In this document: in pieces, positions 39,896-53,542 of the stretch
Layout of the letters: each line of letters starts with the position of its first letter
Position numbering within the stretch: position 1 is the stretch's first letter
DNA from: Nodosilinea nodulosa PCC 7104
GTDB lineage: Bacteria > Cyanobacteriota > Cyanobacteriia > Phormidesmidales > Phormidesmidaceae
Assembly (NCBI RefSeq): GCF_000309385.1
Contig: NZ_JH976537.1
Location: forward strand, 771,426 to 835,425
Direction of reading: 5' to 3'
Length of the DNA stretch: 64,000 nucleotides
The notes under the pieces: generated by a model
Databases searched by the model: none
What the model saw: the letters and a program-made list of their open reading frames with translations, nothing else
Told to the model about the DNA's origin: nothing
Position numbers and translations under genes: made by a program

Positions 39896-40522
39896 ATGGA
39901 TAAACCTTTGAACTCTCTACAACCTCGCTACGATGTCACTGGTCGATATACGGCCCTGCTGCAAGCGGGGGAAGTTCTACTGTGCAAGGGGTATGACAGC
40001 GCTCAGCCTCAGCAGATTGCTAAAACCGCCGGGGTATCAACGGGTCTGTTTTATCGGCATTTCAAGAATAAGCAGGAACTGCTGACGGCGATTATGGTAC
40101 GTCATCTGGGGATTTTACATGACCAAATTAAGCAGGCACTAGAACCCTATGCTGACCCAGTTGAAGATTTGCGCCAAGTCATGGAGTTGACTCTGCGCTA
40201 TTTTCAGGCCCATGAAGGGCTGATCAAACTCTTTTTTATGCAGGTCGGTTACGGGGACGCGATCGCAAGTGAACATCTGCAAGCGGCACGGCAAACTTAC
40301 CGAGATATTTTGGCCTCAATTATCCAGGCAGGAATTGCTAAGGGAATTTTTATCGCGATGGATGATTTTGATGTTCAGCTAGCTATTAATGGCTTTATTG
40401 GCACTATTAACTGGTCTCTTTATGATCTGCTGATTGTTAAGCAAGAACGTATTGAGCTGGATGCATTGGCAAATCGACTGTCAATGTTTTTGCTTCGAGG
40501 TTTAGGTCACGCATTGGGGTAA
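39896..40522 (+). CDS. TetR/AcrR-family regulator
   Basis: 208 aa. N-terminal HTH (about 20-65; SAQPQQIAKTAGVSTGLFYRHFKNKQELL in segments) and an all-helical ligand-binding C-terminal domain including FQAHEGLIKLFFMQVG. Divergent from the cupin gene, with the 19-bp palindrome about 28 bp before its start. A repressor sensing an unknown small molecule. Confidence 0.88.
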   Translation: MDKPLNSLQPRYDVTGRYTALLQAGEVLLCKGYDSAQPQQIAKTAGVSTGLFYRHFKNKQELLTAIMVRHLGILHDQIKQALEPYADPVEDLRQVMELTLRYFQAHEGLIKLFFMQVGYGDAIASEHLQAARQTYRDILASIIQAGIAKGIFIAMDDFDVQLAINGFIGTINWSLYDLLIVKQERIELDALANRLSMFLLRGLGHALG

Positions 40523-40585
40523 AACAGTTCATTGCTTTGACTACTTTTTGACTGCCTTATTTAGAGGTGAGTAGAACGCCTTAAT

Positions 40586-40671
40586 TATCGTAGGGTGCGT
40601 CATCGCTTGGCGTGACGCACCAGGCCCAGATCTCGCGGTGCGTTGGGCTTTGCCACAACACACCCTACAGC
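40586..40671. repeat. Palindromic interspersed repeat, GTAGGGTG type
   Basis: Ends GTAGGGTG and CACCCTAC form inverted terminal repeats; inside, GGTGCGTCA and TGACGCACC form a 9-bp-arm hairpin, and a TGCGTTGGGCTTTGCC block follows. Similar short repeats are common in cyanobacterial genomes. No coding capacity. Confidence 0.7.
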
Positions 40672-40702
40672 AACGTTTAATTAGGGCTACCTACTTATCG
40701 AC

Positions 40703-40787
40703 TTGGTTGACTGACAAAACCCTTGAAACCCTTAGGCTGCCGTAGGTTTTGTTGGGTTACGCTAAAGCCAACAAAACCGTTACTTTC
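40703..40787 (+). repeat. MITE-like interspersed repeat, copy B (truncated)
   Basis: TGACTGACAAAACCCTTGAAA and GTAGGTT..GCCAACAAAACCGTTAC match the left half of copy A (25590-25748) in the same orientation. The right half is missing: homology ends at about 40782, inside the last codons of the SnoaL-like gene on the minus strand. Confidence 0.7.
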
Positions 40788-41256
40788 TATGCATGCTGGT
40801 TAATAGCTTAGCAATAGCGCCTTTTAGAAGATGGGGCAACAGCTGCGGTCCCGGCAGAAAGACAATCCCCAACTGCTGCATGAGTCCCAGGGCATCGCCC
40901 TGGCCCCAGTGCTCCACAATTTGGCCATCCTTAATCCGATCGATGTGCATGATGGACAGGCGAATGGACTGGCCGGTGGGCGGAAGTCCCTGAAAGCTTC
41001 CCAAGTGAGTGGCGGTAAACGTTCCGCAGGTCACTACTTTGTCTTCGGACACAATCACCTGATCAAAGCTGTGTTTCCCTTGACTAAAGGCCGTGTAAAA
41101 AGACAAGCCGAACTGCTTGAATTGTTCCTTATCTAGCGGCTCGGGCATTCCCGCTAAGTGGGCGACAAAACCCGGCGCTAACAGATCTACCGCCTGCTCG
41201 ATCTGGCGATCGTCGAAAGCCTGGTAGAACTGAAGCACAATATCCTGGTTAGTCAT
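40780..41256 (-). CDS. SnoaL-like/ester-cyclase family protein
   Basis: 158 aa NTF2-fold protein with the SnoaL pattern: FYQAFDDRQIEQAVDLLAPGF, a conserved Lys/Asp region, GLPPTGQSIRL and a late MHIDRIKDGQIVEHW motif with acid-base residues. SnoaL-type proteins close aldol rings in polyketide synthesis, but many act elsewhere. The C-terminal codons (SMHRK, stop) lie at the edge of repeat B, so the original end may have been replaced. 8 bp downstream of the DJ-1 gene, same operon. Confidence 0.82.
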   Translation of the reverse strand: MTNQDIVLQFYQAFDDRQIEQAVDLLAPGFVAHLAGMPEPLDKEQFKQFGLSFYTAFSQGKHSFDQVIVSEDKVVTCGTFTATHLGSFQGLPPTGQSIRLSIMHIDRIKDGQIVEHWGQGDALGLMQQLGIVFLPGPQLLPHLLKGAIAKLLTSMHRK

Positions 41257-41264
41257 GGATTACA

Positions 41265-41951
41265 TCATTTAGCTGAGCTGCTGTAGCCTGGGTTTGCGCC
41301 CAGAAGGCATCTACCAAAGGTTATTCCAGCTTGGAGCAAGGCTTGCACAACCTCCTTGCCTGCGGTTTCAGGGGTGCCCGCATCAAACGGCGGGTCAGGG
41401 GTGTATTCCATCATTAGCTGAGTCATTTTAGCGATCTGCTCGCCGCAGAGCATACTCAAAAGCGCCAGCCCAAAATCGATGCCCGAGGTAACGCCAGCGC
41501 CAGTGATGCGGTTCCGATCAATCACCACCCGCTGGGGCACTACTTCTACACCAAGGGCGGCGAGATAATCGCGAAAAGCCCAGTGGCAGGTGGCTTTGTA
41601 GCCCTGCAATAGCCCCGCTGTCGCTAGAATCATCGAGCCGGTGCAAACGCTGGTGACGTATTGAGCAGTGGCACTCTGCTGCTTGAGAAAATGCAGAATT
41701 TCTGGGTCTTTCATCACCTCCACTTGCCCCATACCGCCGCCGGGAACGCAGATTACATCCAAAAGCGGACAATTCTCCAGGGTGGCAGTGGGTGTCAGGG
41801 GGATTCCTTCGTTGCTAACAATGGGATTCAGGGTCTTCCAAATTAGATGGATGTGGGTATTGGGCGGGAAGTCCAGCACCTGATACGCCCCCATCACGTC
41901 TAATTGAATCACGCCAGGATAGATGAGAAAACCGATTTGAATGGGGTCCAT
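41265..41951 (-). CDS. DJ-1/PfpI-family protein (isonitrile-hydratase-like)
   Basis: 228 aa from the Met of MDPIQIGFLIYPG (an upstream Met adds 10). Flavodoxin-like fold with the nucleophilic Cys at the elbow in VTSVCTGSMILA and a preceding LDVICVPGGGMG loop. The Asp near the N-terminus (VIQLDVMGAY) and Thr after the Cys fit isocyanide hydratase (InhA). It may also be a chaperone or glyoxalase. Forms an operon with the SnoaL-like gene and faces the first LuxR gene. Confidence 0.85.
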   Translation of the reverse strand: MDPIQIGFLIYPGVIQLDVMGAYQVLDFPPNTHIHLIWKTLNPIVSNEGIPLTPTATLENCPLLDVICVPGGGMGQVEVMKDPEILHFLKQQSATAQYVTSVCTGSMILATAGLLQGYKATCHWAFRDYLAALGVEVVPQRVVIDRNRITGAGVTSGIDFGLALLSMLCGEQIAKMTQLMMEYTPDPPFDAGTPETAGKEVVQALLQAGITFGRCLLGANPGYSSSAK

Positions 41952-42011
41952 TTTTTGCAGTTGTCTGAAATCGCTGAGCATGGAACGATTGTAGAAACCC
42001 CACTTAGTCCT

Positions 42012-42037
42012 GAATAGTCCTCAACTGGGTACTCTTT
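42012..42037 (+). promoter_or_regulatory. Conserved motif upstream of LuxR gene 1
   Basis: GAATAG-T-CCTCAA-CT-GGGTAC-T-CTTT, 10 nt before the start codon; almost the same sequence, with A for the central T positions, precedes LuxR gene 2 at 45367-45392. A TAGTCCT direct repeat (42005-42011, 42015-42021) with 10-bp period overlaps it. Probably the promoter/operator for autoregulation. Confidence 0.55.
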
Positions 42038-42046
42038 TGGCAATTT

Positions 42047-42754
42047 ATGGTGAATTCTCTGCATTCATTGTTTCAGAGCATCGCAACGGCCCCCACCGAG
42101 CAGGCGCTGCGGCATCGCGTAATGGATGGCCTCAGCGACCCGTTTGGGGTGCAGCGCTGGGGCATTTACCTGCTGGATGAACGCCAGAACTTAGCCGGAT
42201 TCGATGTCGTGGGCGTTTCCGATGCCTTTGTCGAGCGCTACGAGAAATTTGGCCGAGCGGTCGATCCAGTGATGCGCTACGTGATGGAAAACCATGCCCC
42301 AGCCCATGAAGAATTGGTAGTACCGCAGGGCCAGTGGAAGCACACCGATCTCTATCAATGGTGCTGTTCGCAATACGATCATGAGCACATCATGACCGGG
42401 CCGATTGTGGGCCGGGGGCAGCTGATCGGGACGATTCACTTTGCCCGTGTGGGTGAGACTCCGGCGTTTAGCGCAGTGGATTTGGCGAATCTGGGGGCGG
42501 TGTGCAGCCACGTTTCGGCCTCTCTGGCAGAGCTGCGGCGATCGCCCGCCTCACCCAATTTCCTCACAGAACGGCTCACTCCCCGCGAGCGACAAATTGC
42601 TACCTTGGTCGCGCAAGGCTTGACCAATGCTGAAATTGGCGCAGAGCTGTGGATTACACAAAACTCGGTCAAACAGGCCTTAAAGCGAATGTTTCGCAAG
42701 CTGGAGGTGTCGGCTCGAACCGAAATGGTGGCGAAGCTGCAAGATTTTGTTTAA
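42047..42754 (+). CDS. GAF-LuxR-type transcription regulator, copy 1
   Basis: 235 aa. N-terminal GAF-like sensor (about 10-160, including MTGPIVGRGQLIGTIHFAR) and a C-terminal LuxR HTH (LTPRERQIATLVAQGLTNAEIGAELWITQNSVKQAL in pieces). No receiver domain, so probably ligand-controlled like autoinducer- or GAF-type LuxR proteins. It is paralogous to the gene at 44655-45344; the two are nearly identical in the HTH (FRKLEVSARTEMVAKL versus FRKLNVSSRAEMVAKL). Divergent from the DJ-1/SnoaL operon. Confidence 0.88.
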   Translation: MVNSLHSLFQSIATAPTEQALRHRVMDGLSDPFGVQRWGIYLLDERQNLAGFDVVGVSDAFVERYEKFGRAVDPVMRYVMENHAPAHEELVVPQGQWKHTDLYQWCCSQYDHEHIMTGPIVGRGQLIGTIHFARVGETPAFSAVDLANLGAVCSHVSASLAELRRSPASPNFLTERLTPRERQIATLVAQGLTNAEIGAELWITQNSVKQALKRMFRKLEVSARTEMVAKLQDFV

Positions 42755-42771
42755 GAAACATCGGTATGAAT

Positions 42772-42787
42772 GTTCAAACGTTTGAAC
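42772..42787. repeat. 16-bp perfect palindrome beside IS insertion site
   Basis: GTTCAAACGTTTGAAC, 18 bp after the LuxR 1 stop codon and 1 nt before the IS target duplication. It could be a small terminator, an operator or the feature that attracted the element. Confidence 0.6.
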
Positions 42788-42794
42788 GTTTATG

Positions 42795-44587
42795 CTCACG
42801 GTTCGCTCATTTTTAAATGAGGTCAGCCAATTGGGTTAGGTTTGGGCTATGGATACCCCCCTAACCGTTATCACCGAACGGGTTGACGATATTCCCCTGT
42901 TGCTGGCCCAACTGCAGCGGATGGACGTGCAACCCCTGCTCGACGACTACTTTCCGACCCATGGGAACTGGCAGGGGCTCAGCTTAGGCCATGTGGTGAT
43001 AGTTTGGCTGAGCCACATTTTGTCCCAAGCGGATCACCGGTTAAACCCCGTGCAGGCCTGGGTAGAGCGACATCAGGAAACCTTGCAACAGGGCTTGCAG
43101 CAACCGGTTCGCGCCCTTGACCTGAGTGACGACCGCCTAGAAAGCGTGTTGCGATATCTCAGTGATGATGCCCAATGGGCGTTGTTTGAACCGGCGTTGA
43201 ATCAGCGTCAGATTCAGGTGTATGACCTGCACCCCAAACGGCTGCGTCTGGATAGTACCAGCGTCAGCGGGGATTGGACGGTCAATGAGTCAGGGCTGTT
43301 CCAATATGGCCATAGCAAAGACCATCGCCCCGACCTGCCCCAACTGAAGCTGATGCTGGCGACGCTAGATCCGCTGGGGCTACCGATAGCGACCGAGATT
43401 GTCTCCGGGCAGCGCGCCGACGACCCGCTCTACATTCCGGCCATCGGGCAGGTGCGTCAGACCCTCAGTCAGTCTGGGTTGCTCTACGTGGGTGACAGCA
43501 AGATGGCCAGTCTAGCGACCCGTTGCTTTCTCCAGGCCACAGGCGATTACTATCTCTGTCCGCTCGGTGGGACTCAACTCAAGGCGGAGGCGATGCAGGC
43601 CTACCTAGACCCAGTGGAGCAAGGGGCCGTTGAGTTGCAGGAGATTCACTACGACTATGCCGACGGTCACACCGCGCTGATTGCCCGAGGCTATGAGCAG
43701 ACCCAGACCCGCACAGGAGAATGGGACGGACACACCTGGACGTGGTCAGAGCGGCAATTGGTCGTGTACTCCTTGGCTTATGCTCAATCCGCCCAGCAGG
43801 CCTTCCAAGCTCGACTTGAGCACGCCCAGACGGCCTAGCGGCGCTCAACCAATCGGGGCGCGGCCAGAAAGCCTTTCCCGATGAGGTCGCCTTAGCGCAA
43901 GCCGCCGAGGCGATTCTCACCCGCTACCGGGTCAAGGCCTACGTTCAACTCACCTACTCACAACAGGTGGAGCAACACGCTGTGCGTCGCTACCGGGACC
44001 GCCCGGCTCGGATGGTGGAGCACCGTCGATTCCAGGTGAATGGCACCCTAGAAACTGAGGCCATCAACCAGCAGATGCAAACCTTGGGCTGGCGGGTCTA
44101 TGTCACCAATCATCCCGCAGCGGCATTATCGTTGCCTCAAGCCGTGACGGTCTACCGCCAAGAATATCTGGTGGAGCACAGCTTTAGCCGACTCAAAGGG
44201 CATCCCCTCTCCCTCTCCCCGATGTACTTACAGCGTGAAGACCATATCAAGGGATTAATTCGCTTACTCTCGATGGGGTTGCGGCTGTTAACGCTGGTGG
44301 AGTTTCAGATGCGTCAAGCCTTAGCTGGTCACCAAGAAACCCTCTCAGGGCTATATATCGGTAATCCCAAGCGGGCGACGGCACGTCCGACAGCCGAATT
44401 ACTGTTGGCCAGTTTTCGCGACATTACTCTAGTCATGGTGAATGCACGAGGGCAGACCTATGCCCATCTGACGGAGCTGACGCCTTTACAGCAGCAGATC
44501 TTAAAGGCTCTCAACTTCCCGGTAAGTATTTACACCCTGCTGGGGCCCGTATCTGACGAACCACCTTAGAAATGAGCGAACCGGGAG
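42795..44587 (+). mobile_element. IS1634-like insertion sequence
   Basis: 1793 bp. Terminal inverted repeats of 22 bp with 2 mismatches: left begins CTCACGGTTCGCTCATTT (42795), right end reads CTCCCGGTTCGCTCATTT on the minus strand (from 44587). The flanking TTTATG at 42789-42794 and 44588-44593 is a perfect 6-bp target-site duplication. It separates two GAF-LuxR paralogues. The preserved duplication suggests recent insertion. Confidence 0.9.
42849..44569 (+). pseudogene. IS1634-family DDE transposase, frameshifted
   Basis: A 329-codon frame (42849-43838) ends at TAG; the rest continues in the -1 frame (from 43835: LAALNQSGRGQKAF) to 44569, about 574 codons in all. DDE residues: Asp in RLRLDSTSVSG, Asp in LLYVGDSKMAS, and Glu in YLVEHSFSRLKGHPL, which lies after the shift, so the catalytic triad is split. 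GHSKDHRPDLPQLK is typical of IS1634. The overlap between frames is only about 18 nt and has no slippery heptamer, so loss of one C in a GCC-CTA context is more likely than programmed shifting. Confidence 0.85.
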
Positions 44588-44654
44588 TTTATGGGAGACC
44601 TGTCTTAATCAGACTAGCTATAGCTACAGCGGCCAAAATATAGCGGCTAGAGGG

Positions 44655-45344
44655 TTAACCCAGCGCGATACTGCCGGAAAGTTTGGCCACCATTTCCGCC
44701 CGCGATGACACATTCAGCTTACGAAAGATGCGCTTCAGGGCTTGCTTCACGGTATTCTCCGTAATCCACAGTTCGGCGCCGATCGCTCTGTTGGTCAGCC
44801 CTTGGGCGACGAGTTCCACAATCTGGGTTTCCCGTGGCGTCAGGTTGTCGGTGCCCAGGCTGGCTGGGGTGGATGGCGATCGCACCACGGTCAATCGACT
44901 CGAAAAATGCAGGCACAGGGCGCTGAGATCGGCCAGATTGTCGGCATTGAAAGGGGCATCGGCGCGATCGCGGGTAAAAGCCAGCCCCCCGGTCAACTTT
45001 CCATGGGTGACAATCGGCCCCACCATCACATGGGCATGATCGGCCCGAGGACAAAGGGTTTGCCAGACGCCGGGAGGCAAAACCACCTCATCGTGTACCG
45101 CCGTATGGCGCTGCACCAGATAGCGCAGCACCGGATTGTGCTCCAGCGACAGCGCCAGCCGCATTAACTTGGGCATGGTGTCGTTGATGGCCGGAAACTC
45201 ATCTAAAAAACTCAGTTTCCAGCGACGGGCCGAGAAGTAGTCGCCCAAATGAGCCATCACAGATTCGCGCAGCTCGTCTTCGTGTTGGGCCTGGGCGATC
45301 GCCCGAAACAGGCTCTGCAAAGAAATGTCTGTGCAATGGGTCAT
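44655..45344 (-). CDS. GAF-LuxR-type transcription regulator, copy 2
   Basis: 229 aa from ATG 45344; a TTG 8 codons upstream overlaps the conserved promoter motif and is rejected. GAF-like N-terminal domain (AHVMVGPIVTHGKLTGGLAF) and LuxR HTH (LTPRETQIVELVAQGLTN and GAELWITENTVKQALKRIF). Paralogue of the gene at 42047; overall similarity is moderate in the sensor and high in the HTH, suggesting the same DNA target but different signals. Divergent from the DUF6220 gene. Confidence 0.88.
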   Translation of the reverse strand: MTHCTDISLQSLFRAIAQAQHEDELRESVMAHLGDYFSARRWKLSFLDEFPAINDTMPKLMRLALSLEHNPVLRYLVQRHTAVHDEVVLPPGVWQTLCPRADHAHVMVGPIVTHGKLTGGLAFTRDRADAPFNADNLADLSALCLHFSSRLTVVRSPSTPASLGTDNLTPRETQIVELVAQGLTNRAIGAELWITENTVKQALKRIFRKLNVSSRAEMVAKLSGSIALG

Positions 45345-45366
45345 TGAAGTCACCAACCGCTGAGGC

Positions 45367-45392
45367 AAAGTGTACCCGATTGAGGTCTATTC
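45367..45392 (-). promoter_or_regulatory. Conserved motif upstream of LuxR gene 2
   Basis: On the minus strand: GAATAG-A-CCTCAA-TC-GGGTAC-A-CTTT, matching the motif at 42012-42037 at 22 of 26 positions. It lies 22 nt before the LuxR 2 start. Confidence 0.55.
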
Positions 45393-45481
45393 GTCAGAAG
45401 GGAAGACCTTTAACTTGGGATTTGTGCTGGAAGCCTGTTGCCTTTGCGCCCTTTATAGCAATCTTTGATTGCTCCTTCCCA

Positions 45482-45964
45482 ATGGTTTTGACATCCCCTT
45501 CACCCAACTCGAATGCTGACCCAATTCCTGAGACAACTCCACCTTTGGCGAGATCCGCCGCCATCGGGTTTTATGCCCTAGCGGTCCTGTTTAACCTGTG
45601 CCTGGTAGCGCAACTCGTCACCGTGGGGCTAGCGGTTTTTTACGACCCTGCCTGGTGGAACGCTCACGTTTGGCTAGTTCGTAGCTACAGCGGCCTTTCT
45701 CTGATTTTGCTGTTATGGGTTTACTGGCAGCCGTTCCCCCCACGAACCCGAACTCTGACCCTGAGTTTTCCGGTAGTGCTGGGGCTTCAGTTTCTCACCA
45801 TTCACCTGCAAACCCCGCTGCCCCTACCGCTAGCGGTGATGCACCCCCTGCTTGGATTCGCGCTGTTTACTGCATCAACCACCCTCGTACACCGGGTTTG
45901 GCACCTTGTGTCGATCCCTTCCGAAACCCGTGAACCCCAGCCGAAAACCCCCAATCCCCTTTAG
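45482..45964 (+). CDS. DUF6220-like membrane protein
   Basis: 160 aa from ATG 45482 (an upstream open extension of 46 codons is probably non-coding). Four hydrophobic segments: about 28-50 (IGFYALAVLFNLCLVAQLVTV), 67-84 (VRSYSGLSLILLLWVYW), 93-108 and 118-135. A short polar N-terminus and C-terminal tail rich in Pro. Small four-helix membrane proteins of this type have no known role. Divergent from LuxR copy 2 and probably its target. Confidence 0.72.
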   Translation: MVLTSPSPNSNADPIPETTPPLARSAAIGFYALAVLFNLCLVAQLVTVGLAVFYDPAWWNAHVWLVRSYSGLSLILLLWVYWQPFPPRTRTLTLSFPVVLGLQFLTIHLQTPLPLPLAVMHPLLGFALFTASTTLVHRVWHLVSIPSETREPQPKTPNPL

Positions 45965-45990
45965 CCCCCCAGGCTAAACAGCCCTTTTAC

Positions 45991-46020
45991 TCCCCCTCCC
46001 CCCCATCCCCCCATCCCCCC
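45991..46020 (+). repeat. C-rich heptamer-like repeat abutting a start codon
   Basis: Three or more CCCCATC/CCCCCAT units, the last running into ATG 46021 of the sulfurtransferase gene. It leaves no Shine-Dalgarno sequence. Confidence 0.7.
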
Positions 46021-46851
46021 ATGATCCCCTACGCCCATCCCGAAGCCCTAGTCGATACCCAATGGCTGTCCGACCATCTTCACGATCCAACTCTGCGAAT
46101 TCTGGAAGTGGATATGAGCCCTGAACCCTATCAGAACAATCACATCCCAGGAGCGGTGTTTTGGAATATTTTGAAGGATGTGTTTCAGCCCGATCTGCGG
46201 ATTAATTTTGAGCCGGATGCGATCGCATCCCTCCTCTCCCGCTCCGGCATTGCCAACGAAACCACCGTCATCGCCTACGGCAGCTACCCTGGCACCGGAG
46301 CCTGGATATTCTGGTTTCTCAACGTCATTGGTCACCAGAATGTTCGCGTGCTCAATGGCGGCCATCAGAAATGGCTGGCAGAAGGACGTCCGGTTGCCTC
46401 AAAATTCGCCACGGTTTCCCCTAGGTCGCATCAGCCCAGGCTGTTGAACATGGACTTGCGGGCGACGAAAGATGAGGTTCTGGCTGCCATCAATGACCCT
46501 CAGCGAGTACTTTTAGATGTCCGCACGCTGCCGGAATACGTGGGGGAGGTGTTTCTCATGGAGCCTCCTAAAAACGGCGAACGGGCCGGGCACATTCCGG
46601 GGGCGGTGCATCTAGAACACACCCTCACTCTGAATGAAGACGGCACGTTCAAATCTGTCGAAGAGTTGCAGACTCTCTTCAGCAGCCAGGGTATTGCCCC
46701 CGAAAAAGAAGTGTTTCCTTACTGCGCTGTGGGCGGGCGATCGGCCTATATGTGGTTTGTTTTGAAGCATCTGTTGGGCTATGCCAACGTGCGCAATTAC
46801 GACGGTTCCTGGAACGAGTGGAGCCGACTTGCCGATACTCCGATCGCCTAG
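46021..46851 (+). CDS. Sulfurtransferase with two rhodanese domains
   Basis: 276 aa, the length of TST/SseA-type thiosulfate or mercaptopyruvate sulfurtransferases. The N-terminal domain is inactive (the Cys loop is replaced by IAYGSYPGTGA), while the C-terminal domain has the persulfide-forming C235 in VFPYCAVGGRSAY. HIPGAV occurs in both halves. It moves sulfane sulfur from a donor to thiophilic acceptors such as cyanide. The start is set by homology-like beginning IPYAHPEALVDTQWL; a C-rich repeat precedes it. Confidence 0.92.
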   Translation: MIPYAHPEALVDTQWLSDHLHDPTLRILEVDMSPEPYQNNHIPGAVFWNILKDVFQPDLRINFEPDAIASLLSRSGIANETTVIAYGSYPGTGAWIFWFLNVIGHQNVRVLNGGHQKWLAEGRPVASKFATVSPRSHQPRLLNMDLRATKDEVLAAINDPQRVLLDVRTLPEYVGEVFLMEPPKNGERAGHIPGAVHLEHTLTLNEDGTFKSVEELQTLFSSQGIAPEKEVFPYCAVGGRSAYMWFVLKHLLGYANVRNYDGSWNEWSRLADTPIA

Positions 46852-46927
46852 AGCAAAATCGCGTTTGAGCTCCAAACTCTACGTCAAACTGAGCGGGGCT
46901 CTTGCCCGTTTTTGCTGACCCGCTGGT

Positions 46928-47093
46928 CTGATGGACTGACAAAAGTCTGATGCAGTTTTGATGTAGGTTGGTGTTGAGCGAAGCGTTCGCGTTGGCGCAG
47001 CCGCCCCTGTGGGGCTAGCGTCTCTAGGGGAGAAAACCCAACACCAGTAACGGTTTTGTTGGCTTACGCTAACGCTAGCCCAACCTACTAAAG
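46928..47093 (-). repeat. MITE-like interspersed repeat, copy C (inverted relative to A)
   Basis: GGACTGACAAAA at the left, then TGATGTAGGTTGGTGTTGAGCG, an internal insertion with GGCGCAGCCGCC, and CCAACACCAGTAACGG.. TTGTTGG.. CCAACCTAC. It is collinear with the reverse complement of copy A. It fills most of the gap 46852-47316, which has no gene. Confidence 0.75.
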
Positions 47094-49732: not shown

Positions 49733-52700
49733 ATGACTCAACCCTCTGCGCCCCAGCCCCGCTGGCAGTTTTGGATCGATCGCGGTGGCACCTTCACCGA
49801 CATCGTCGCCCGCCGTCCCGATGGTCAGCTCCAGGTTCACAAGCTGCTGTCCGAGAACCCTGGCCGCTACGAGGACGCGCCAATTCAGGGCATTCGCGAA
49901 ATTCTGGGGCTGGCGGTGCAGGAGCCGATCCCCGCCGATCGCATTGAAGTGGTGAAAATGGGCACCACCGTCGCCACCAATGCACTGCTGGAGCGGCGCG
50001 GCGATCGCACCCTGCTCCTGATTACCCAGGGCTTCGGCGATGCCCTCCGCATCGGCTACCAGAACCGGCCCGACATTTTTGCCCGCCACATCCAGCGGCC
50101 CGCAATGCTCTACGAACGTGCGATCGAAGTGCCCGAACGCTACAGCGCCCAGGGCGAAGAATTGCTGGCGGTGGATGAGTCAGGAGACTGGGTAGATGCC
50201 CTTCAGCAGGCCTTTGATCAAGGGATTCGCAGCGTTGCGATCGCCTTTCTCCATGCCTACCGCTACCCCGGCCACGAGCAGCAGGTCGCCGCGATCGCCC
50301 GGCGCATCGGCTTCAGCCAAATTTCCGTCTCCCACCAGGTCAGCCCCCTGATGAAGCTCGTCAGCCGAGGCGACACGACCGTGGTGGATGCCTACTTGTC
50401 GCCGATTTTGCGCCGCTATGTAGAGCAGGTGGCTGCGGAGCTGGAAGGAGATAGGGGAGATGGAGGAGATAGGGCAGATGGAGGAGATAGGGGAGATGGA
50501 GGAGATAGGGAAGCCATCGCCCCCCCACCTTCCCCATCCTCCCCACCTCCCTCACCCACCCCATCACCCCATCACCCCATCACCCCATCACCCCATCACC
50601 CCCCCACCCCCCCACCCCGCCTCATGTTCATGCAGTCCAACGGCGGCCTCACCGACGCCCATCGCTTCCAAGGCAAGGACAGCATCCTCTCCGGGCCAGC
50701 GGGGGGCATCGTCGGAGCGGTGAAGACCTGCGCCAGCGCGGGCTTTCACAAAATCATCGGTTTCGACATGGGCGGCACCTCCACCGATGTCTCCCACTAC
50801 AACGGCGAGGGCGGGGCTGGCGACTACGAGCGCACCTTTGAAACCGAGGTGGCCGGGGTGCGGCTGCGGGCGCCGATGATGGCAATCCACACCGTCGCGG
50901 CAGGGGGCGGTTCGGTATTGGCCTTTGATGGGGCGCGCTACCGGGTGGGGCCAGAGTCGGCGGGGGCGTACCCCGGCCCGGCCTGCTATCGGCGCGGGGG
51001 GCTGCTCACCGTTACCGACTGCAATGTGATGGTGGGCAAGCTCCAGCCGGAGTTTTTTCCGGCGGTGTTTGGCCCCGAGGGCGATCTGCCGCTGGACCCG
51101 GCGGCGGTGAAAGCGGGGTTTGGGATGCTGGCCCAGCGGGTGGCCGAGCAAACTGCCGTGGCGCAGTCGCCGGAGGAAGTGGCGGCGGGGTTTCTGGCGA
51201 TCGCGATCGAGAAAATGGCCAGCGCCATCAAAAAAATCTCCATCCAGCGTGGCTACGACGTCAGCGAGTACACCCTGTGCAGCTTCGGCGGTGCGGGCGG
51301 CCAGCACGCCTGCCTGATCGCCGAAACCCTGGGCATGGGCCAGATTTTTCTGCATCCGCTGGCGGGGGTGCTGTCGGCCTACGGCATTGGCCTGGCGGAC
51401 CTGCGCGTTCTCAAGGAAAAGGCGATCGAAGCTGCCCTGACCGACGACACCGTGGCGCTGCTCAAAACTGAATGCTCTGCTTTGGAATCTTCAGGACGGC
51501 AGGAGATGATTGACCAGGGCGTGGCTCCCGACCAGATCACCACGCTGCACAAGGTGCACCTGCGCTACAGCGGCACCGACCTGGCCCTGATTATCCCCTT
51601 TGGCTCCCAGGCCGAGATGCAGGCCCAGTTCGAGCAGACCTACCAGCAGCGCTACGGCTTTACCATGGCAGGCAAAGCCCTGGTGGTAGAGGCGATTTCG
51701 GTCGAAACCATTGGCCACACCGCCGATATTGCCGAGCCTCAGATCGCCGAGCAGCGGCAGGTTCCCCTGGCTCCCGTCGCCACCACATCCATCTACACCA
51801 AGGGCGAATGGCGCGATACCCCCGTCTACCAGCGGGGCGATCTGCTGCCGGGAGACCACATTTCCGGCCCGGCGCTGATCATTGAGCCCACCGGCACCAA
51901 CGTGATTGAACCGGGCTGGTCGGCCCAACTGACGCCGCAAAACCATTTGGTTCTGAACCGGGTGGCGGTAGCCGAGGTTGCCGCAGGCACCAGCGAAGCC
52001 AGCGCCAGTCCCGACCCGGTGAAGCTGGAAATCTTCAACAACCTGTTTCGCTCCATCGCCGAAGAGATGGGCATTACCCTGCAAAACACCAGCTACTCGG
52101 TCAACATCAAAGAGCGGCTCGACTTTTCCTGCGCCCTGTTCGACCAAAACGGGCAGCTGGTGGCCAATGCCCCCCACATTCCGGTGCACCTGGGCTCCAT
52201 GGGCGAAAGCGTGCTCAGCCTGATCAAGGCCCAGGGCCAGCGCCTCGCCCCCGGCGATGTCTACATGTCGAACAACCCCTACAACGGCGGCACCCACCTG
52301 CCCGATATCACTGTCATCACCCCGGTGTTTCTGCCAGGCCAGCCCCGGCCCCAGTTTTACGTGGCCTCGCGGGGGCACCACGCCGATATTGGCGGCATTA
52401 CCCCCGGCTCCATGCCGCCCCACAGCACCTCGATTCAGCAGGAAGGAGTATTGATCGACAACGTCAAGCTGGTGGAAGGGGGCAGATTGCGGGAAGCCGA
52501 CGTCACCGCCCTGCTGCAATCTGGCCCCTACCCGGCCCGCAACATCGACCAGAACCTGGCCGATCTCTGCGCCCAGATTGCGGCCAACGAGCGGGGCGGG
52601 CAGGAACTGCGTCGGATGGCCGACCACTACGGCTTGCCCCAGGTGCAGGCCTACATGCAGCACATCCAGGACAACGCCGAGGAGGCGGTGCGCCAGGTGA

Positions 52701-53542
52701 TCGACGTGCTCTCGGACGGGGCTTTCACCTACCCCACCGACGATGGCAGCCAGATTCAGGTGAGCATTGCCATTGACCCAAACGCGCGATCGGCCCGCAT
52801 CGACTTCAGCGGCACCTCCCCTCAGCAGGCCACCAACTTCAACGCTCCCCTGGCGGTGTGCAAAGCGGTGGTGCTCTACGTCTTTCGCACCCTGGTGGCC
52901 GACGATATTCCGCTCAATGCCGGGTGCCTGAAGCCGTTGGAGATTGTGGTGCCGGAGGGTTGCCTGCTCAACCCCCGCTATCCGGCGGCGGTGGTGGCGG
53001 GCAATGTGGAAACCTCCCAGGCGATCGCCAACGCCCTCTACGGCGCTCTTGGAGTGATGGCCGCCAGCCAGGGCACCATGAACAACTTCACCTTTGGCAG
53101 CGATCGCTACCAGTACTACGAAACCATCTGCGGCGGCTCCGGGGCTGGCCCCGACTTCGACGGCACCGATGCCGTGCAGACCCACATGACCAACTCCCGC
53201 CTCACCGACCCGGAGGTGCTGGAATGGCGCTTTCCGGTGCTGGTGGAAACCTTCGCGGTGCGGCCCCACAGCGGCGGGGCAGGCCAGCATTCCGGCGGCA
53301 GCGGCGTGATTCGCCGCATCCGCTTCCGGGAACCGATGACCGCCGCGATTCTGTCGGGCCATCGCCAGATCTCTCCCTTTGGCTTGCAGGGAGGGCAGCC
53401 CGGTAAGCCAGGGCTAAACCAGGTGATGCGGGCCAGTGGCGAGGTAGAAACCCTGGCCGGTAAGGCCGAAGTGGCGATGCAGCCCGGCGATGTGTTTGCG
53501 ATCGAAACCCCCGGCGGCGGCGGTTTTGGGCCTCTAGCCTAG
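49733..53542 (+). CDS. ATP-dependent 5-oxoprolinase / HyuA-HyuB fusion
   Basis: 1269 aa, the full eukaryote-like fused form. HyuA half: N-terminal [16 protein letters not shown], central [17 protein letters not shown] (ATPase-like phosphate loops) and [14 protein letters not shown]. HyuB half from about residue 760: [14 protein letters not shown] and [18 protein letters not shown]. It opens 5-oxoproline (pyroglutamate) to glutamate using ATP, or a related hydantoin. Residues about 238-298 contain a non-conserved insertion of RGDGGD-type and Pro/His/Ser-type repeats, encoded by DNA tandem repeats, in a surface loop before LMFMQSNGG. Ends 4 bp inside the convergent amidohydrolase. Confidence 0.92.
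50445..50620 (+). repeat. Two tandem repeat arrays inside the 5-oxoprolinase gene
   Basis: First array: about three copies of an 18-bp G-rich unit (GGAGATGGAGGAGATAGG), read as RGDGGD repeats. Second array: about six copies of CCCCATCA, an 8-bp unit read as an 8-aa cycle (HHPITPSP). Total length keeps the reading frame. Confidence 0.85.

Follow-up and report, generated by a model that had tools for sequence, protein, structure and literature searches.

A candidate operator shared by two GAF-LuxR genes of Nodosilinea nodulosa and placed at a nearly fixed distance from the predicted starts of divergent genes

The locus and its two motif copies

We analysed a stretch of 64,000 nucleotides from the genome of Nodosilinea nodulosa PCC 7104 (contig NZ_JH976537.1, positions 771,426 to 835,425 of the forward strand), referred to here as the window. 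It contains two convergent genes for LuxR-type proteins with a GAF-type sensor (GAF-LuxR copies 1 and 2), each preceded by a copy of one 26-bp motif. A preliminary description of the window had proposed that each copy faces a different effector, and this is what lies there: DJ-1/PfpI and SnoaL-like genes at copy 1 and a DUF6220 gene at copy 2. The features are as follows, in window coordinates.

42012..42037, + strand: motif copy 1, with a 16-bp imperfect dyad core at 42017-42032
45367..45392, - strand: motif copy 2, with its dyad core at 45372-45387
41988..41993, - strand: predicted -10 hexamer (TACAAT) for DJ-1/PfpI-SnoaL, with 18 bp between it and the motif edge; start site predicted near 41981
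45411..45416, + strand: predicted -10 hexamer (TAACTT) for DUF6220-rhodanese, with 18 bp between it and the motif edge; start site predicted near 45423
42047..42754, + strand: GAF-LuxR copy 1, 235 amino acids; PF01590 and PF00196 above cut-off
44655..45344, - strand: GAF-LuxR copy 2, 229 amino acids; PF00196; homology to copy 1 extends along the protein
41265..41951, - strand: DJ-1/PfpI protein (PF01965), presumed target of the copy 1 site
40780..41256, - strand: SnoaL-like protein (PF07366), 8 bp behind the DJ-1 gene
45482..45964, + strand: DUF6220 membrane protein (PF19728), presumed target of the copy 2 site; ATG confirmed
46021..46851, + strand: rhodanese-family sulfurtransferase behind DUF6220 (PF00581; NF008557 below its cut-off)
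42795..44587, + strand: insertion sequence (IS) with 22-bp terminal inverted repeats and a DUF4277-type transposase, between the convergent luxR genes

Copy 2 is given from its ATG at 45344; the open reading frame (ORF) was listed with a TTG start farther upstream. The DJ-1/PfpI ORF as listed begins at 41981, a position that coincides with the predicted transcription start; the true start is more likely at 41951, from which the protein reads MDPIQIGF, as in relatives. The SnoaL-like gene, judged by its spacing, is presumed to share an operon with DJ-1, and the rhodanese gene is presumed to be cotranscribed with DUF6220. In some relatives (L195, L172, L180, L219) the rhodanese gene itself faces the motif. 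The preliminary description had mentioned neither this rhodanese gene, nor the -10 element at fixed spacing on the opposite strand, nor the multi-copy IS between the luxR genes.

Motif copy 1, read from 42012 to 42037 on the forward strand, is GAATAGTCCTCAACTGGGTACTCTTT, and copy 2, read from 45392 to 45367 on the reverse strand, is GAATAGACCTCAATCGGGTACACTTT. Aligned without gaps, they agree at 22 of 26 bases, so that both the positions and the identity first described hold. The gap notation used there, with two free bases per gap, matched nothing, and the motif should instead be written GAATAGnCCTCAAnnGGGTACnCTTT. Searched with a tolerance of three mismatches, this corrected string matched the two window copies and nowhere else in the 6.89-Mb genome, and its control, the motif read backwards, had no match. 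In a search for a larger regulon within the same genome, allowing up to two mismatches to the pattern, control matches outnumbered real ones, and a relaxed composite of motif and -10 element returned one extra match against two control matches. Since control matches were the more numerous in both searches, only the two window sites are credible in N. nodulosa.

Conservation and promoter geometry of the motif

The preliminary description implied that relatives with the genes should also carry the motif, and they largely do. Among the genomes of 57 relatives we found 20 full-length GAF-LuxR homologues, and the motif precedes all 20, with 15 to 22 of its 22 fixed bases, compared with 10 to 14 for the next-best match in the same regions; a partial homologue copy (G052:C26) has no motif. 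A second set comprised the 80 top-ranking named loci out of 442; it overlaps the 20 relatives in that at least L072, L074 and L091 correspond to L005, L006 and L008. In this set, 77 loci carry the motif with scores of at least 10.8, against a maximum of 4.9 in shuffled sequence. The motif-bearing set covers many cyanobacterial families. Alignment of 100 inputs left seven without a site by regular expression (L076, L094, L119, L121, L124, L130, L137), four of which carry a variant with the same 18-bp spacing; in L119, L121, L124 and L137, from Nostocaceae and Hapalosiphonaceae, the variant has TTACCCA in its left half.

We then extended the search to a sample of 291 genomes of the class with the exact degenerate pattern AGWCCYCRANYGRGTACWNTT. 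It matched 117 sites in 85 genomes (backwards control, 2), and the GAF-LuxR family, defined by an E-value of 1e-25 or better, is present in 105. All 85 genomes with a site are among the 105 with the gene, and none of the 186 others has one (Fisher p 1.4e-54). Among the 150 gene matches listed, 99 of the 117 exact sites are followed, at no more than 500 bp, by a family gene of the same orientation, and 96 of 134 full-length family genes have an exact site before them. The composite pattern (relaxed motif plus -10 element) matched 134 sites; they lie in 94 genomes, of which 93 have the gene, and the control matched five times. This co-occurrence bears on the possibility that the motif belongs to another factor, be it some other regulator or a sigma factor of the alternative type that uses it as a -35 element, with GAF-LuxR as one target among others. 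The motif does occupy the -35 place and also stands before genes without an adjacent luxR; however, its restriction to gene-bearing genomes (85 of 105, against 0 of 186), its dimer-like dyad and the GerE-type helix-turn-helix (HTH) of the regulators make this explanation unlikely.

The position of the motif is constrained as well. On the strand opposite to luxR, the distance from the motif edge to a TAnnnT hexamer is exactly 18 or 19 bp at 43 of 44 non-redundant loci. The same holds for 91 of all 93 aligned sites, the two exceptions being a contig end (L089) and a false site (L117); any other spacing occurs in at most 3 of 44. At both window sites the distance is 18 bp. Taking +1 as 7 bp beyond the -10 hexamer places the predicted dyad centre at -43.5 for the 18-bp spacing, as at both window sites, and at -44.5 for 19 bp. 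No sigma-70 hexamer pair with a -35-like element was reported at either window site. This is the arrangement of class II activator promoters, in which a dyad lies next to the -35 position at a constant distance from the -10 element and the -35 itself is weak or absent. Because the -10 element has a fixed distance on the other strand, the motif would mark the promoter of the divergent gene, and it is best read as an activator box of divergent target promoters and not as an upstream element of luxR.

Two readings centred on luxR can be weighed against this geometry. If the motif were only an autoregulatory repressor site of luxR, one would expect it where it is found, before family genes (the 99 of 117 exact sites given above, mostly 7-66 bp from the start of the match, among the matches listed). 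The invariant spacing of 18 or 19 bp to TAnnnT nevertheless points to the divergent gene, no comparable forward -10 element exists outside the motif, and sites persist before divergent genes where no luxR is left, so we consider this reading very unlikely. A forward -10 element for luxR was sought, and a TAnnnT at motif position 18 is present in 40 of 44 loci; it was rejected as part of the motif itself, where it is indistinguishable from a protein contact. An RNA leader element of the luxR or the divergent mRNA would also account for a motif close before luxR start codons, yet the region 40500-47000 has no Rfam match, the -10 element at 18 or 19 bp puts the motif upstream of the divergent start site, and some sites directly abut the ATG with little leader left; this possibility can practically be set aside. 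Finally, the motif stands in an open frame before many luxR genes (encoding ...PRSGT...), but between copy 1 and its close orthologues it falls in different frames with respect to luxR, and it lies at varying distances from the start codon, so that a coding constraint was rejected.

The motif core, GTnCyCrAnyGrGnAC, is an imperfect 16-bp palindrome. Dyad positions 4/13 and 6/11 are complementary in all 44 non-redundant loci, and positions 7/10 co-vary, with A-T in 27 and G-C in 10; at 7/10 complementarity holds in 38 of 44, against 22.4 expected from shuffles and reached by none of 10,000, in a test that leaves shared descent in place.

Taken together, the motif is most probably an operator through which one-component GAF-LuxR regulators, forming a cyanobacterial family, mainly activate the divergent, stress-type gene. 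A GAF-LuxR dimer would bind the 16-bp dyad and, from about -43.5 or -44.5, activate a divergent promoter with a -10 element and without an evident -35, in the manner of class II. Since the operator directly precedes the luxR start codon, binding would probably also adjust luxR expression, an autoregulation of either sign. For the window this model predicts that DJ-1/PfpI-SnoaL is turned on by copy 1 and DUF6220-rhodanese by copy 2; because the two operators are so alike, each protein may also reach the site of the other. The motif, its conservation, the dyad, the fixed spacing to the -10 element and the joint occurrence with the gene family are established; binding by these proteins, activation, autoregulation and cross-talk are all inferred from genome sequence.

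Several observations weigh against this interpretation. A repressor at the same position would look alike, and activation is favoured for the strict spacing and the missing -35 element. Towards luxR there is no comparable -10 element outside the motif, and no promoter of luxR itself was found. The dyad is imperfect, since positions 3/14 are complementary in none of the 44 loci and 5/12 and 8/9 have no significant excess of complementarity, and shared descent may contribute to the pairing at 7/10. In addition, three of the 80 named loci (L076, L117, L130) lack the motif, and among the matches listed 38 of 134 full-length genes have no exact site, a variant being present in only some of them.

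In outline the circuit is of an ordinary kind, though the evidence for it is unusually precise. The conserved operator-promoter unit is, as a predicted element, real, and it apparently belongs to an undescribed cyanobacterial regulon. Sequence alone was sufficient to define a regulator family found in 105 of 291 sampled genomes of the class, together with its putative operator and the exact promoter layout.

The regulator family and its nearest known systems

Both proteins have a C-terminal GerE HTH (PF00196, 50.8 and 58.6 bits, cut-off 23.5) and an N-terminal sensor, and no receiver domain was matched in either by Pfam, which is the composition of one-component LuxR/GerE regulators. GAF (PF01590) is above its cut-off in copy 1; copy 2 has no GAF match of its own and aligns with copy 1. 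An AlphaFold model of copy 1 from 75 sequences has a mean predicted local distance difference test score (pLDDT) of 91.4, and its N-terminal domain matches many GAF domains with Z of 15-16 over about 150 residues.

The copies are 48% identical over the whole proteins. Their HTH domains are nearly the same (44 of 55 residues, 177-231), as had been noted. The sensors had been described as different; they are in that only 64 of 170 residues are identical, but seven His/Cys residues conserved in the family are present in both. In an alignment of 96 proteins, 95 agree at H83, H87, H114, C153 and H155 and the remaining row has a gap there; H112 is kept in 93 and C107 in 90. One may reasonably guess that this set forms a metal or redox site.

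The preliminary description had taken the locus for a duplicated local circuit, and this part has to be given up. In the tree, copy 1 falls in a clade of 28 rows (support 100/99) with orthologues from Nodosilinea, Synechocystis and Leptolyngbya, copy 2 falls in a separate clade of six rows (100/93), and in genome G012 the orthologues of the two copies lie on different contigs. The separate clades rule out an inverted local duplication; by the tree, copies 1 and 2 are ancient paralogues. That the motif is a regulatory site common to two GAF-LuxR paralogues with different targets is, on the other hand, supported by its conservation.

NarL has the closest solved DNA-binding domains to the HTH of the window proteins. 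Its heptamer is TACYYMT, arranged as 7-2-7; the half-site GTACCCA resembles this heptamer, and the half-sites lie 2 bp closer to each other than in the NarL layout. Unlike NarL, the window proteins lack a receiver domain, and they score 42 and 50 bits against the NarL equivalog, below its cut-off of 250. Quorum-sensing LuxR proteins (CviR, QscR, SdiA, TraR) have the same two-domain layout and take the top Foldseek ranks over the whole model, at TM-scores of 0.4-0.5, whereas the sensor domain aligns to GAF domains instead. We rejected an autoinducer-type sensor, as no autoinducer-binding domain (PF03472) was among the Pfam matches of either protein at an E-value of 0.001.

Nearest in logic are the HchA-associated LuxR proteins (TIGR03541). 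SmoR of Stenotrophomonas maltophilia is a LuxR-type protein that goes with a DJ-1-superfamily gene and has a palindromic box before that gene (PMC4432800), and the group has been surveyed (PMC4338825). The window resembles these systems in pairing a LuxR with a DJ-1-superfamily gene that has a palindromic box before it. In the HchA-associated systems hchA and luxR share one operon and the sensor binds an acyl-homoserine lactone, whereas in the window the DJ-1 gene is divergent and the sensor is GAF-type; unlike the HchA-associated proteins, the window family has the five His/Cys columns that vary in none of the 96 rows apart from one gap. The TIGR03541 profile matches part of the sensor and the HTH with 33.3 and 30.8 bits, below its cut-off of 215.6. 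PedR of Synechocystis is a LuxR-family one-component regulator of several genes including its own operon, with a Cys80 switch and the motif RWWTRGGYNNYY (PMC13421787). The PedR model (NF052366) is an HTH-only protein of 74 positions, while the window proteins have a sensor domain too; they score 28.5 and 36.8 bits against it (cut-off 120).

Searches of the open PubMed Central literature, outside which subscription papers and preprints fall, returned no description of the family or the motif, no paper on DUF6220, and none on DUF3386 in cyanobacteria.

Target genes and cross-regulation

To describe the putative regulon we tallied the first gene behind 105 distinct pooled sites, restricted to sites already having the -10 element. 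It encodes DJ-1/PfpI at 50 sites, DUF3386 at 17, DUF6220 at 14, MAPEG at nine, rhodanese at four and an NdhK-like protein at one; seven sites face other genes and three have no gene of 90 amino acids. DUF6220, DUF3386, MAPEG and DJ-1 proteins, products of poorly understood genes, would thereby be tied to one control system. DUF6220 and rhodanese genes adjoin in the window and in L200, L201, L203 and L220.

Individual loci add to this picture. At L193 (3165-3881) a heavy-metal-associated (HMA) domain is fused to DUF6220 directly behind a motif promoter, and this fusion hints at a possible role of DUF6220 in metal handling. L200 (5932-6730) has a near-consensus site (GTAT for GTAC) with a -10 element at 19 bp facing an NdhK/NuoB-like gene. 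Divergent GAF-LuxR relatives at L035, L213, L215, L214 and L218 have variant sites at 18-bp spacing facing MAPEG-type genes; L035 sits on a very long tree branch, and L214, L215 and L218 have low family-search scores. An automatic flag for neighbouring regulators overlooked the divergent HTH of L035, L213 and L215 and was left out of the counts. L187 (G121:C76:99500-108500) is a local cluster of the module, with three motif promoters in about 5 kb, two DJ-1 genes, one DUF6220 gene, an MFS-like transporter gene, and one intact and one truncated GAF-LuxR gene.

Eighteen of the 117 exact sites do not directly precede any of the listed family genes; they are spread over 15 genomes, each of which has a family member elsewhere. 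Seventeen of the 18 keep the -10 spacing. Downstream, eight have a decayed or truncated luxR, two an intact luxR about 0.9-1.0 kb off, and eight no remnant, one of these with only 164 nucleotides to inspect. In G008, G010 and G017, from the same genus, the copy-2-type luxR has decayed and the DUF6220 promoter is kept. Operators kept without an intact local regulator, in genomes with a paralogue elsewhere, fit a regulator that acts on its paralogue's operator. As only exact sites were searched, decayed regulators that have also lost their operators are undercounted.

Cross-regulation between the window copies, which the preliminary description had proposed, is thus plausible on sequence grounds: the recognition helices are near-identical, and operators have survived the decay or absence of their local regulator in genomes where a paralogue is present. 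Against full cross-talk, HTH residue 205 tracks the dyad centre: in 89 aligned protein-site pairs it is E at 13 of 13 sites with a G-C centre and Q at 56 of the 61 with an A-T centre, a relation confounded by clade. Copy 1 has Q and the centre AACT; copy 2 has E and the hybrid centre AATC. The pattern hints at partly separate specificities. It would suit insulated pairs, in which no GAF-LuxR binds any operator or controls any facing gene but its own, and the operators are alike through ancestry; the separate clades, with a typical partner for each, point the same way. Insulation accounts less well for the 18 sites without an intact adjacent regulator (eight of them before a decayed or truncated luxR and eight without remnant), all in genomes with a paralogue, for the otherwise identical recognition helix VKQALKR, and for the hybrid centre of the copy 2 operator. 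Insulated pairs are a real possibility, to which we give somewhat less than even weight.

A broader proposal combines operator sharing with the sensor. The family may sense metal or a thiol/redox signal through its His/Cys set and act in trans through the shared box, so that ancient paralogues would be cross-wired over electrophile/thiol-type genes (DJ-1, MAPEG, rhodanese, DUF6220 and the one HMA-DUF6220 fusion). We hold this only tentatively and think it rather doubtful. Because the His/Cys set is invariant and the operator shared, the signal and the cross-talk are each open to direct test.

Two further observations concern the surroundings. The IS between the luxR genes is one of about 14 near-full-length copies in the genome with 99-100% identity, an identity that argues for a recent and incidental insertion outside the circuit. 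The window copy spans 1793 bases, against 1794 in most copies, and may be frame-shifted, since its transposase frame falls into two parts. Farther along, the ORF at 49733-53542 (1269 amino acids), presumably a hydantoinase/oxoprolinase-like protein, contains in-frame tandem repeats at 50437-50618, with units of 18 and 24 bp, which encode a GDGGDR- and proline-rich insert.

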